64,000 nt of DNA from Litoreibacter albidus (GTDB lineage Bacteria; Pseudomonadota; Alphaproteobacteria; Rhodobacterales; Rhodobacteraceae). Position 1 is the first letter of the stretch. Every line of letters begins with the position of its first letter. The stretch lies in assembly GCF_900107015.1 (NCBI RefSeq), contig NZ_FNOI01000006.1, positions 124,001 to 188,000 on the forward strand, written 5' to 3'. The translations under genes were made by a program, and so were the position numbers. Below the pieces are notes generated by a model, which did no database searches, was not told the origin of the DNA, and saw only the letters and a list, made by a program, of their open reading frames with translations. Below, piece by piece: positions 10,729-14,433 of the stretch.

Positions 10729-10837
10729 GGACCCGCATAGAGACCAGCCACAAAACCTATCTGAATTACGACTGCGCCGTGGGGGCAATCCTGCGGCGCA
10801 ATCGCGTTTGGGCGCTATCTACCTGACCTCCAGACAC

Positions 10838-10873
10838 AAAAAAACGGTGATGCGGGAGGAGGTGCATCACCGT
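10838..10873 (-). terminator. Intrinsic terminator ending the CcsR array
   Basis: The last hairpin of the array has perfect 10-base arms (10844-10853 and 10864-10873) around the GGGAGGAGG core and is followed on the minus strand by a run of seven T (10838-10844). It therefore serves both as the final CcsR unit and as a Rho-independent terminator. Confidence 0.85.
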
Positions 10874-11090
10874 TCTTTGTGCGGCTCGGACCAGGGAGGA
10901 GGAAGGTCGTTGCCGTATGACGGGCCAGCCTCGGGAGGAGGTGAAGCTGGACCGTTTTGCTCAGTATCAACATCTAAGGGAGGAGGAAGATGCTGTACCG
11001 ATTTGGTCAGTGGCGGCCCCTATAAGGGAGGAGGAAGGCGCCGCCACTAAAGCGAATCCCGGCCTAAGGGAGGACAAAAGCCGGGGTCGC
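10838..11090 (-). ncRNA. Array of six CcsR/cuckoo-type hairpin RNAs
   Basis: On the minus strand six hairpins follow one another directly after a DUF1127 gene, each showing CCTCCTCCC (or a shorter form) in the loop. Plus-strand GGGAGGAGG cores lie at 10854-10862, 10894-10902, 10933-10941, 10978-10986 and 11026-11034, with a degenerate GGGAGGA at 11068-11074. Each core has its own complementary flanks, for example TGGCGGC 11011-11017 with GCCGCCA 11040-11046, CCAGC 10925-10929 with GCTGG 10946-10950, and CCCGGC 11058-11063 with GCCGGG 11081-11086. In Rhodobacter sphaeroides the CcsR1-4 RNAs have this motif, follow a DUF1127 gene, are processed from a joint transcript driven by RpoH-type sigma factors and act in the oxidative stress response. 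The loop is complementary to Shine-Dalgarno-like sequences. Confidence 0.9.
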
Positions 11091-11094
11091 AAAC

Positions 11095-11307
11095 TTATTT
11101 GCCGTAAGCCGCCTCATATGCGACGGACTTAAGGTTGCCGCGGCTCATGCCAAGGTCTGCCAGTTCGCGACCGGACAGGGCTTGCAGCTCGTCCAGTGTT
11201 TCGCGGTAGACGCGGTTTTTGGCGTGGCGCTCGGCCAGATCGTTTTTGAATGCAACAAGGCGCTCCAGAAGGGATGGCGCAGTGCTGGTACCAGTTGTAA
11301 AAGCCAT
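11095..11307 (-). CDS. ccaF1: DUF1127 small protein, CcaF1-like
   Basis: A 70-residue protein with the DUF1127 pattern in its second half (TLDELQALSGRELADLGMSRGNLKSVAYEAAYGK), preceded by a predicted amphipathic helix. In Rhodobacter sphaeroides the homologous gene upstream of the CcsR RNAs (RSP_6037) encodes CcaF1, a small RNA-binding protein that influences maturation and turnover of the RNAs encoded behind it. The same arrangement is seen here: the stop codon is followed within a few bases by the first hairpin. DUF1127 genes are numerous, so the symbol rests on the linkage to the array. An RpoH-like promoter lies about 70-95 bases upstream. Confidence 0.85.
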   Translation of the reverse strand: MAFTTGTSTAPSLLERLVAFKNDLAERHAKNRVYRETLDELQALSGRELADLGMSRGNLKSVAYEAAYGK

Positions 11308-11374
11308 ATCGTTACCTTTTTCTCAGCGAGACCTTGTGTCAGCGGTCTGACGTGTTCGTCTCTGTTGACCTCAA

Positions 11375-11401
11375 TTTAGTGAAATGCTGCGTCGCAACAA
11401 G
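11375..11401 (-). promoter_or_regulatory. Candidate RpoH-type promoter of the DUF1127-CcsR unit
   Basis: Read on the minus strand, CTTGTTG (11395-11401) and CACTAAA (11375-11381) are separated by 13 bases. A CTTG-type -35 element with this spacing resembles RpoH-class promoters, and RpoHI/RpoHII are known to drive the homologous unit in Rhodobacter. The -10 match is weak, so the call leans on context. Confidence 0.5.
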
Positions 11402-11644
11402 TCACACGTTTACAATGCCGCTATGCAGCGAATGCATGGCTTAACCCGTTGTTTTGCTTACCTAACGTCAGCAGAATTATGACGTTTTTGTGAACTGCCG
11501 CAGCGCGTATCGCATATCTGCGGGCGGTGCACAGTTATCCATCAGTTTGAAAACATTTTCGCGGGTATGCGCTGTGGGGTTGCCCTTCGTCGCGCAGGCG
11601 CTCACTTAGTTGGTAACGGAAATTGACGACGACAGGATGCCCCG
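11402..11644 (+). other. Gene-free stretch upstream of apbC
   Basis: Together with 11308-11401 this makes a 337-base gap between the leftward DUF1127 gene and apbC. It holds an inverted repeat AACGTCA (11464-11470) and TGACGTT (11480-11486) followed by TTT, which could be a weak terminator or an operator, and a partial DnaA-box-like TTATCCATC near 11536. I find no reading frame that I would support. The apbC promoter must lie here but cannot be pinpointed. Confidence 0.4.
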
Positions 11645-12703
11645 ATGACTGTGACCCGCGAGACGATTCTTGATGCCCTGCGTGTGCTGAAGCTGCCCGA
11701 CGGCGAAGACGTTGTTGCCAAGGACATGGTGCGCGCGCTCACGATTGACGGGGACACCGTGCGCTTCGTCATTGAGGCGGCGCCGGAAATCGCCAAGCAC
11801 CTAGAGCCGCTGCGCGCAGCCGCCCAGCAGATCGTGGAACGAATGGACGGTGTCACCACCGCGTCCGTACTGCTGACCGCGCATTCCGACAAAAAACCGC
11901 CGTCGCTGAAAGTCGGCAAACATCCAGAGCCCCAAGCTGGCCCGTCGAAGCCAAAGGGCGTCGCCCGCATTCTGGCTGTGGCTTCCGGCAAGGGTGGTGT
12001 CGGCAAGTCGACGTTGTCTTCGAACCTAGCTGTGGCGCTGGCCAAGCAAGGCCGCCGTGTGGGCCTGCTGGATGCGGATATTTACGGACCGTCCCAACCG
12101 CGCATGATGGGGGTCAGCAAGCGCCCTGCGTCCCCCGATGGTAAAACGATCATCCCGCTGAAGGCGCATGGCGTCACGATGATGTCCATCGGCCTGATGA
12201 TGGACCCCGACAAAGCCATCGTCTGGCGTGGCCCTATGCTTATGGGCGCGTTGCAGCAGATGCTGGGGCAGGTGGAGTGGGGGGAGCTGGATGTGCTCAT
12301 CGTTGATCTGCCACCGGGCACCGGCGACGTCCAACTGACGCTTTGCACTAAGTCCGAGCTAAGCGGCGCTATCGTGGTCTCCACGCCGCAAGACGTGGCT
12401 TTGCTGGATGCGAAGAAAGCCATTGATATGTTCAACACCTTAAAGACACCGGTCCTCGGGCTCGTGGAAAACATGTCTATGTATATATGCCCGACCTGCG
12501 GGACGGAGGCGCATATCTTCGGCCACGGTGGCGTCAAGGACGAGGCCGCCAAAATGGGGCTGCCGTTCCTTGGTGAAATTCCGCTTGATATAGATGTGCG
12601 CCTGTCCGGCGATAGCGGCACCCCCATCGCGGCGGGGGATGGCCCTGTGGCGCAAGCCTACGCCAAGCTGGCGGAAGGCTTGGTCAAAGGCGGTATGGCT
12701 TGA
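11645..12703 (+). CDS. apbC: ApbC/Mrp-family Fe-S cluster carrier ATPase
   Basis: A 352-residue P-loop NTPase of the Mrp/NBP35 family that carries and transfers Fe-S clusters to apoproteins in the cytosol. Residues 1-85 form the MIP18/DUF59-like N-terminal domain. The deviant Walker A motif SGKGGVGKST, the switch DADIYGPSQPRMMG and the Walker B-like VDLPPGTGDVQLT follow in order. The bridging cluster-binding CxxC pair is in MYICPTCGTEAHIFG. Length and domain order are standard. It stands alone, with no suf or isc gene nearby. Confidence 0.92.
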   Translation: MTVTRETILDALRVLKLPDGEDVVAKDMVRALTIDGDTVRFVIEAAPEIAKHLEPLRAAAQQIVERMDGVTTASVLLTAHSDKKPPSLKVGKHPEPQAGPSKPKGVARILAVASGKGGVGKSTLSSNLAVALAKQGRRVGLLDADIYGPSQPRMMGVSKRPASPDGKTIIPLKAHGVTMMSIGLMMDPDKAIVWRGPMLMGALQQMLGQVEWGELDVLIVDLPPGTGDVQLTLCTKSELSGAIVVSTPQDVALLDAKKAIDMFNTLKTPVLGLVENMSMYICPTCGTEAHIFGHGGVKDEAAKMGLPFLGEIPLDIDVRLSGDSGTPIAAGDGPVAQAYAKLAEGLVKGGMA

Positions 12704-13881: not shown

Positions 13882-13920
13882 CCGTTTAAGGGCCGGAATT
13901 GAGAAAGGGTGGCGCGAGAA

Positions 13921-14433
13921 GTGGCACAACGGTTCAGAGGCGAAGGCGTCCACAAGGTGGACAGCAAGGGCAGGGTGTCCATCCCCGCTCTGTTTCGCCG
14001 CGTTCTGGAAGCGTCTGATCCCGACTGGACCGAAGGTCTTAGCCCCAACGTCGTCATCGTATACGGCGGAAAAAATCAAAATTACCTAGAGGCCTACACC
14101 CAAGAGGCCATTCAGGAAGTCGACGACAAGATCGCGCGTTTGCCGCGCGGCTCCAAGCAGCGTCGCGCGCTGGAGCACATCTTCAACTCGCAATCCTTGC
14201 CCACCCAGCCTGATGACACAGGCCGCCTCGTGCTGCCTGCCAAGCTGCGTGAGAAAGTCGGTATCACCAACGAGGCGAAGTTCGTTGCGATGGGCGACAC
14301 CTTCCAGATTTGGGCGCCAGATGCCTTCGATGATCGCAACGCCGATATCGAAGATTGGTTGGACGAGCAGGGCGAGGACTTCGATCCGCTCGAGTTGTTG
14401 GAGATGGCCTCAGAGCCATCTGTTACGGAGTAG
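13921..14433 (+). CDS. mraZ: MraZ, transcriptional regulator of the dcw cluster
   Basis: A 170-residue protein made of two SpoVT/AbrB-like DNA-binding repeats: [25 protein letters not shown] near the N-terminus and [23 protein letters not shown] near residues 90-115. MraZ forms a ring and binds repeats in the promoter of its own operon. I prefer the GTG at 13921, which gives the typical start MAQRFRGE; a GTG at 13909 is also in frame. It ends four bases before rsmH. Confidence 0.9.

Follow-up and report, generated by a model that had tools for sequence, protein, structure and literature searches.

Within the window analysed here, a 64,000-nucleotide (64-kb) stretch of the Litoreibacter albidus genome, the minus strand carries from 5' to 3' an open reading frame for a DUF1127 protein (11307-11095) followed by six hairpins, the last of which ends at 10838. 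The open reading frame is a ccaF1-like gene, and its 70-amino-acid product matches PF06568 with 36.1 bits (cut-off 23.3). Five of the six hairpins present an exact copy of the loop core CCTCCTCCC. The exception is hairpin 1 (11085-11058), whose degenerate core TGTCCTCCC (11076-11068) has two mismatches and lies 18 nt past the DUF1127 stop codon. Exact cores are found in hairpin 2 (11050-11007, core 11034-11026), hairpin 3 (11000-10961, core 10986-10978), hairpin 4 (10955-10920, core 10941-10933), hairpin 5 (10916-10882, core 10902-10894), which has the weakest stem among these, and hairpin 6 (10878-10838, core 10862-10854). Hairpin 6 runs into seven T (10844-10838) and is the predicted intrinsic, rho-independent terminator closing the array; a simple terminator scan did not report it because its loop of 10 nt exceeds the range of 3-8 nt accepted by the tool. 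The cores are evenly spaced (42, 48, 45, 39 and 40 nt), without spacers that would separate them into pairs. All five copies of CCTCCTCCC present in the window are inside the array, as compared with a mean of 0.36 and a maximum of 2 in 100 shuffled sequences. Covariance model searches gave a single Rfam match at gathering score in the window, ar14 (RF02344, 75.7 bits against a gathering score of 58.8), spanning hairpins 4-6; a second ar14 match over hairpins 2-4 (45.6 bits) was under the gathering score. These results bear out an earlier note on this DNA, which had described a CcsR- or cuckoo-type array of six hairpins behind a DUF1127 gene, with five full cores, a degenerate unit nearest the gene and a last unit doubling as terminator, and had proposed the covariance model run. 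NCBIfam gave no useful name for the DUF1127 protein, nor for the phasin-like open reading frame described below. The window also contains an open reading frame that we take to be mraZ-like (13909-14433).

The locus is a ccaF1-CcsR (CIN1) operon, a stress-type small-RNA operon of a published kind. Passages in PMC8625941, PMC8307010 and PMC7866481 describe the R. sphaeroides ccaF1 gene and CcsR1-4 as co-transcribed from an RpoHI/RpoHII promoter, with a terminator at the end and processing by RNase E. The window shares with that operon the DUF1127 gene, the downstream hairpins with CCUCCUCCC loops and the 3' terminator; it also has a genus-conserved promoter-like stretch. A DUF1127 homologue was found just upstream of the cores in 20/20 congeneric loci and, in a comparison of 66 loci from 63 genomes, in 56. 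Of the other ten, several represent the second site of a genome with an array elsewhere. Across the compared loci, the first core commonly lies about 18-25 nt past the DUF1127 stop codon. The window does not show the R. sphaeroides-like arrangement in which spacers separate four units of two hairpins each. Since many loci of the family are evenly spaced, we regard this as a variant of the layout and not as failed membership. The terminator also differs: in the window it is the last core hairpin itself, unlike the Cereibacter-type layout. Variable stems and CCUCCUCCC loops are likewise shared with the ar14/NfeR1 (RF02344) and cuckoo families, the cuckoo motif being described in PMC4504443 as two to four hairpins. 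NfeR1 is presented in PMC10746234 as a stand-alone three-hairpin small RNA with its own sigma-70 promoter, whereas the hairpins of the window form the 3' part of a DUF1127 operon. A simple consensus scan of 10780-11650 found no sigma-70-type site.

Folded singly, hairpins 1-6 gave z-scores of -1.7, -4.6, -4.2, -4.7, -2.3 and -7.3, indicating that the weakest are the first, degenerate hairpin and the fifth. When the core was forced to remain unpaired between flanks of 16 nt, all six hairpins enclosed it with 8-15 pairs. Stem sequences vary from unit to unit within the array. Covariation was analysed in a pool of 861 distinct exact-core units from the compared loci. With the core held open, 859 of them enclosed it by at least 6 pairs, as compared with 609 when the flanks were shuffled. 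Perfect 6-bp stems were formed by 648 units when each was given its best frame, and by 118-136 after the 3' flanks had been swapped among units. In the 229 units with an A preceding the core, the four innermost positions were standard pairs in 93-97% of cases (44-59% after shuffling), with 5-6 pair types at each position. In a fixed-frame count over the 556 units with a T flanking the core on both sides, pairs were scarcely, if at all, more frequent than after shuffling, which we ascribe to varying loop length; the best frame per unit combined with the flank-swap control gave a clear excess. The flank-swap and pair-type results indicate that the stems change in concert, and this covariation strongly supports the predicted hairpin fold. 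The claim that the stems had diverged while loop and fold were kept, which the earlier note had made dependent on covariation in related genomes, is thus upheld over 861 units. An exact core was the criterion for including a unit in this pool, and the invariance of the loop is therefore in part a selection effect.

The same note had read the six units as an expansion over four units in R. sphaeroides. We reject this reading: the published four counts small RNAs, each of which apparently has two hairpins, and arrays of up to 26 exact cores exist in the family. Cereibacter johrii, C. azotoformans (Luteovulum azotoformans) and C. ovatus each carry eight exact cores, arranged as four pairs with spacers between them (core spacings in C. 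johrii: 39, 66, 37, 76, 39, 74 and 39 nt), and C. changlensis has twelve, as against the six evenly spaced hairpins and five exact cores of the window. These species are close relatives of R. sphaeroides; R. sphaeroides itself lies outside the compared loci, so that its count is argued through them. Together with the two stem-loops of RS0680a (described in PMC3927594), the Cereibacter layout makes it most likely that the four published CcsRs are four hairpin pairs, which corrects the unit count used for operons of the R. sphaeroides type.

A six-hairpin array is in itself ordinary, and six is no unusual number for the family. At least two adjacent exact cores were found in 20/21 congeneric genomes, one genome having eight cores. 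An adjacent core pair was present in 297 of the 394 genomes drawn across the family, and 99 of the 394 exceeded the four pairs of the window, a count that omits pairs with long spacers and includes stray pairs elsewhere. The comparison of unit number across Rhodobacteraceae that had been called for shows the array to be smaller than most: among 80 named loci, chosen by protein similarity and with C. johrii counted twice, the number of exact cores exceeds five in 60, equals five in seven and is lower in thirteen. Four of these thirteen have no exact core, two of the four with less than 450 nt of downstream sequence. The longest arrays were those of genome G185 (L049; 26 exact cores), Loktanella atrilutea (L175; 23) and genome G319 (L077; 20). 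Array size is therefore very elastic, the examined loci having between two and 26 exact cores. Most of the G185 array is made up of three-unit repeats about 140 nt long, a structure suggestive of recent block amplification. In the congener G004, hairpins 2-4 resemble hairpins 5-7 (ungapped identities of 0.71, 0.63 and 0.71 over 49 nt, core included). Window hairpins 3-6 best match G004 hairpins 5-8 (0.86, 0.71, 0.69 and 0.96), and window hairpins 4 and 5 are nearly as close to G004 hairpins 3 and 4 (0.69 and 0.63). This pattern could have arisen by a block duplication followed by loss or by a partial duplication. Several congeners have an exact core at the place of the degenerate hairpin 1, a group of congeners shows similar decay in the first hairpin, and some show decay in the terminator loop. 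In a class-wide draw of 289 genomes, three tight cores were found in the source genome only; the 285 genomes of other families all gave zero, a weak negative because three further genomes of its own family also gave zero.

Some features of the array collection are recorded here as side observations. Groups of two or three cores with no DUF1127 gene found upstream occur at L068, L082, L073, L047 and L250, and some of these genomes also have a main array. In paired arrays such as L161 and L039, some spacers seem by eye to hold a small GC hairpin without CCTCCTCCC, for example around CCGGGTTCAAACCCGG. The two C. johrii loci, L161 and L165, are near-identical copies with few differences on two contigs of one assembly, reflecting either a duplication or an assembly artefact.

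Upstream of the ccaF1-like gene, the minus strand carries a putative promoter (11401-11374), made of CTTG (11401-11398), 18 nt and CTAAAT (11379-11374). Similar boxes are found in the genus alignment, and the arrangement resembles an RpoH-type promoter. Two palindromes of the type bound by PhaR accompany it. Palindrome 1, CTGCATAGCGG (11428-11418, minus strand), lies 121 nt upstream of the start codon; palindrome 2, TTGCGACGCAG (11397-11387, minus strand), follows at a distance of 31 nt and falls between the putative -35 and -10 boxes. Each matches CTGC-N3-GCAG at 7/8 positions and neither is exact; an exact palindrome is present in 16 of the 20 congeners. Two TGC palindromes 31-32 nt apart, the second between the promoter boxes, were found in 17 of the 20 congeneric upstream regions. 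PMC12542648 reports that R. sphaeroides PhaR binds CTGCNNNGCAG and that the -35 boxes of S. meliloti phaP1 and phaP2 each lie between two palindromes of this kind.

We scanned the 300 nt upstream of ccaF1 for CTGC-N3-GCAG with at least 7/8 matching positions. Such a palindrome was present in 20/20 congeneric loci, 34/35 loci of the family sample and 75/80 named loci, as compared with shuffled means of 1.5, 4.2 and 9.6, respectively. Exact palindromes were found in 16, 24 and 56 of these loci (shuffled: 0.1, 0.1 and 0.6). Eleven permuted palindromes gave at most one exact match per set, the best of them reaching 5/20, 7/35 and 21/80 at 7/8. The upstream regions are homologous, so these counts measure conservation and not independent events. 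Six loci outside the PhaR-negative set fell below 7/8 (L064, L146, L148, L155, L176 and L177); the genome of L064, G062, does encode PhaR.

The source genome encodes PhaR (PF07879, E-value 2.0e-26; the N-terminal 125 amino acids match PF07879 with 93 bits and PF05233 with 46.4 bits). In this genome the same PhaR-type palindrome also precedes a phasin-like open reading frame located directly upstream of phaR; its match to Pfam Phasin_2 (E-value 0.002, 18.7 bits) is below the cut-off of 24.9. At L229 a form of it matching at 7/8 positions precedes an acetyl-CoA synthetase-like open reading frame (PF00501, PF16177) by about 220 nt. The PhaR DNA-binding domain was found in 20/21 congeneric and 379/394 family genomes. 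No such domain was found in 15 family genomes. Eight of these carry adjacent cores, and seven of the eight yielded a DUF1127 gene; the eighth, G328, is near complete and PhaR-negative, has cores with no DUF1127 gene found, and so falls outside site scoring. In the PhaR-less genomes that are at least 99% complete and kept ccaF1 and cores, the palindrome was below 7/8 in 3/3 cases (best 6/8). It was kept at 7/8 or better in 4/4 genomes that appeared to lack PhaR and are 71-89% complete, and an exact palindrome is present in the congener G011, which is 57% complete and in which no PhaR was found. In such incomplete genomes phaR may merely fall in an assembly gap, and the pattern is therefore consistent with the site decaying once PhaR has truly been lost. 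A Fisher test of 34/35 for PhaR-positive genomes of the family sample against 0/3 gave p = 0.0005 on the assumption that loci are independent, which they are not. Over three genomes, the co-loss of site and regulator is suggestive rather than proof.

Taken together, the promoter palindromes suggest control by the carbon-storage regulator PhaR, and we think it probable that the locus is a ccaF1-CcsR operon with loops acting as anti-Shine-Dalgarno seeds and additionally placed under PhaR. The array belongs to a known kind; PhaR control of CcsR transcription is what we propose as a new lead, the palindrome being a testable element that would link a global small-RNA operon to carbon storage. A literature search by title, abstract and term counts returned no paper joining PhaR with DUF1127, CcaF1 or CcsR; the key CcsR papers lay outside that search, which is hence no proof of novelty. 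A precedent is MmgR of Sinorhizobium meliloti, which passages in PMC12542648 present as a PhaR-repressed small RNA tied to polyhydroxybutyrate (PHB); it is a different RNA, thought to act on phasins.

The same CcsR operon could instead answer to stress sigma factors only, the palindromes serving another repressor or the divergent mrp gene. We regard this as possible and somewhat improbable. It would be consistent with the divergent position of mrp in 115 of the 142 loci compared, and RpoHI/RpoHII is the only promoter mentioned for the R. sphaeroides operon in the cited literature passages. It accounts poorly for the conservation of the palindrome at 7/8 or better in 25/25 loci with no mrp match in the upstream DNA examined (PhaR-negative set left out), for its absence at that threshold from the three near-complete scorable genomes without PhaR and for the matching palindrome ahead of the phasin-like gene beside phaR.

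Under the preferred reading, in which PhaR is an additional regulator, a single promoter would give a transcript comprising the small DUF1127 protein and six hairpins, the last of which would end transcription. Stress sigma factors would drive this transcription and, by analogy with R. sphaeroides, RNase E aided by the DUF1127 protein would cut the 3' part into small RNAs. Each CCUCCUCCC loop would be an anti-Shine-Dalgarno seed, pairing with purine-rich ribosome-binding sites and lowering translation. The loop copies are probably redundant, so copy number would tune dose, and array size would drift by gain and loss of units and unit blocks. PhaR senses PHB and is displaced from DNA as PHB accumulates. 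PhaR may therefore repress the operon until PHB relieves repression, so that both stored carbon and stress would raise CcsR output. CcsR may in turn restrain pyruvate dehydrogenase, which the R. sphaeroides CcsRs are reported to lower (passages in PMC8625941 and PMC8307010). Extended to most Rhodobacteraceae, the PHB store would set the number of ribosome-binding-site blockers made from CcsR arrays under PhaR; accumulation of PHB would release PhaR, raise CcsR, lower pyruvate dehydrogenase and C1 flux and yield less acetyl-CoA, with stress sigma factors as a second input. We consider the case for this wider loop to be evenly balanced. A PhaR-repressed CcsR that represses pyruvate dehydrogenase would make PhaR look like an activator of that enzyme, and the link may thus bear on the positive effect of PhaR on pyruvate dehydrogenase reported for S. 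meliloti.

Perfect 9-nt targets at ribosome-binding sites were considered as evidence for the action of the loops and rejected on start-codon placement. Fifteen perfect GGGAGGAGG sites were located beyond the array. No ATG opening at least 40 codons follows any of them at a distance of 3-15 nt; in two cases the ATG at this distance opens a shorter frame (28 and 10 codons), and one site precedes a TTG with a 66-amino-acid frame. The 9-mer target is also rarer than its reversed control (20 vs 30), and no perfect target is therefore evident. GGAGGAG-N3-11-ATG is common (61 vs 21 for the reversed control), an excess that ordinary ribosome-binding sites would also give and that is thus no evidence of targeting. 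The array might mainly be a sponge or decoy, its identical loops sequestering a different RNA or some RNA-binding protein instead of each silencing mRNAs, as the earlier note had also raised. The elastic copy number around a fixed loop and the lack of a perfect target at a credible start codon are compatible with such a role, for which this analysis yielded no positive evidence and which we find unlikely: passages in PMC8307010 report flhR mRNA as a target of the R. sphaeroides CcsRs, those in PMC10746234 describe silencing of mRNAs by NfeR1 (ar14 family) through three redundant seeds of this type, and the resemblance of the loop to an anti-Shine-Dalgarno sequence means that imperfect pairing to many ribosome-binding sites could suffice. 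Anti-Shine-Dalgarno pairing thus stands as the likely action of the loops, in line with the earlier suggestion that they act on ribosome-binding-site-like sequences.

We consider it highly improbable that the main role of the hairpins is protection or termination of the DUF1127 mRNA, with the repeats as a non-functional expansion. This view draws on the loop decay tolerated in the first and last hairpins of several congeners and on the last hairpin being the terminator. Against it, stems vary around exact inner loops with strong covariation (loop fixity arising partly from unit selection), and a 9-base loop would hardly be expected to persist in neutral repeats. In the linkers between cores, the short words ATACG, AGATC and AACGG are over-represented and might mark RNase E sites.
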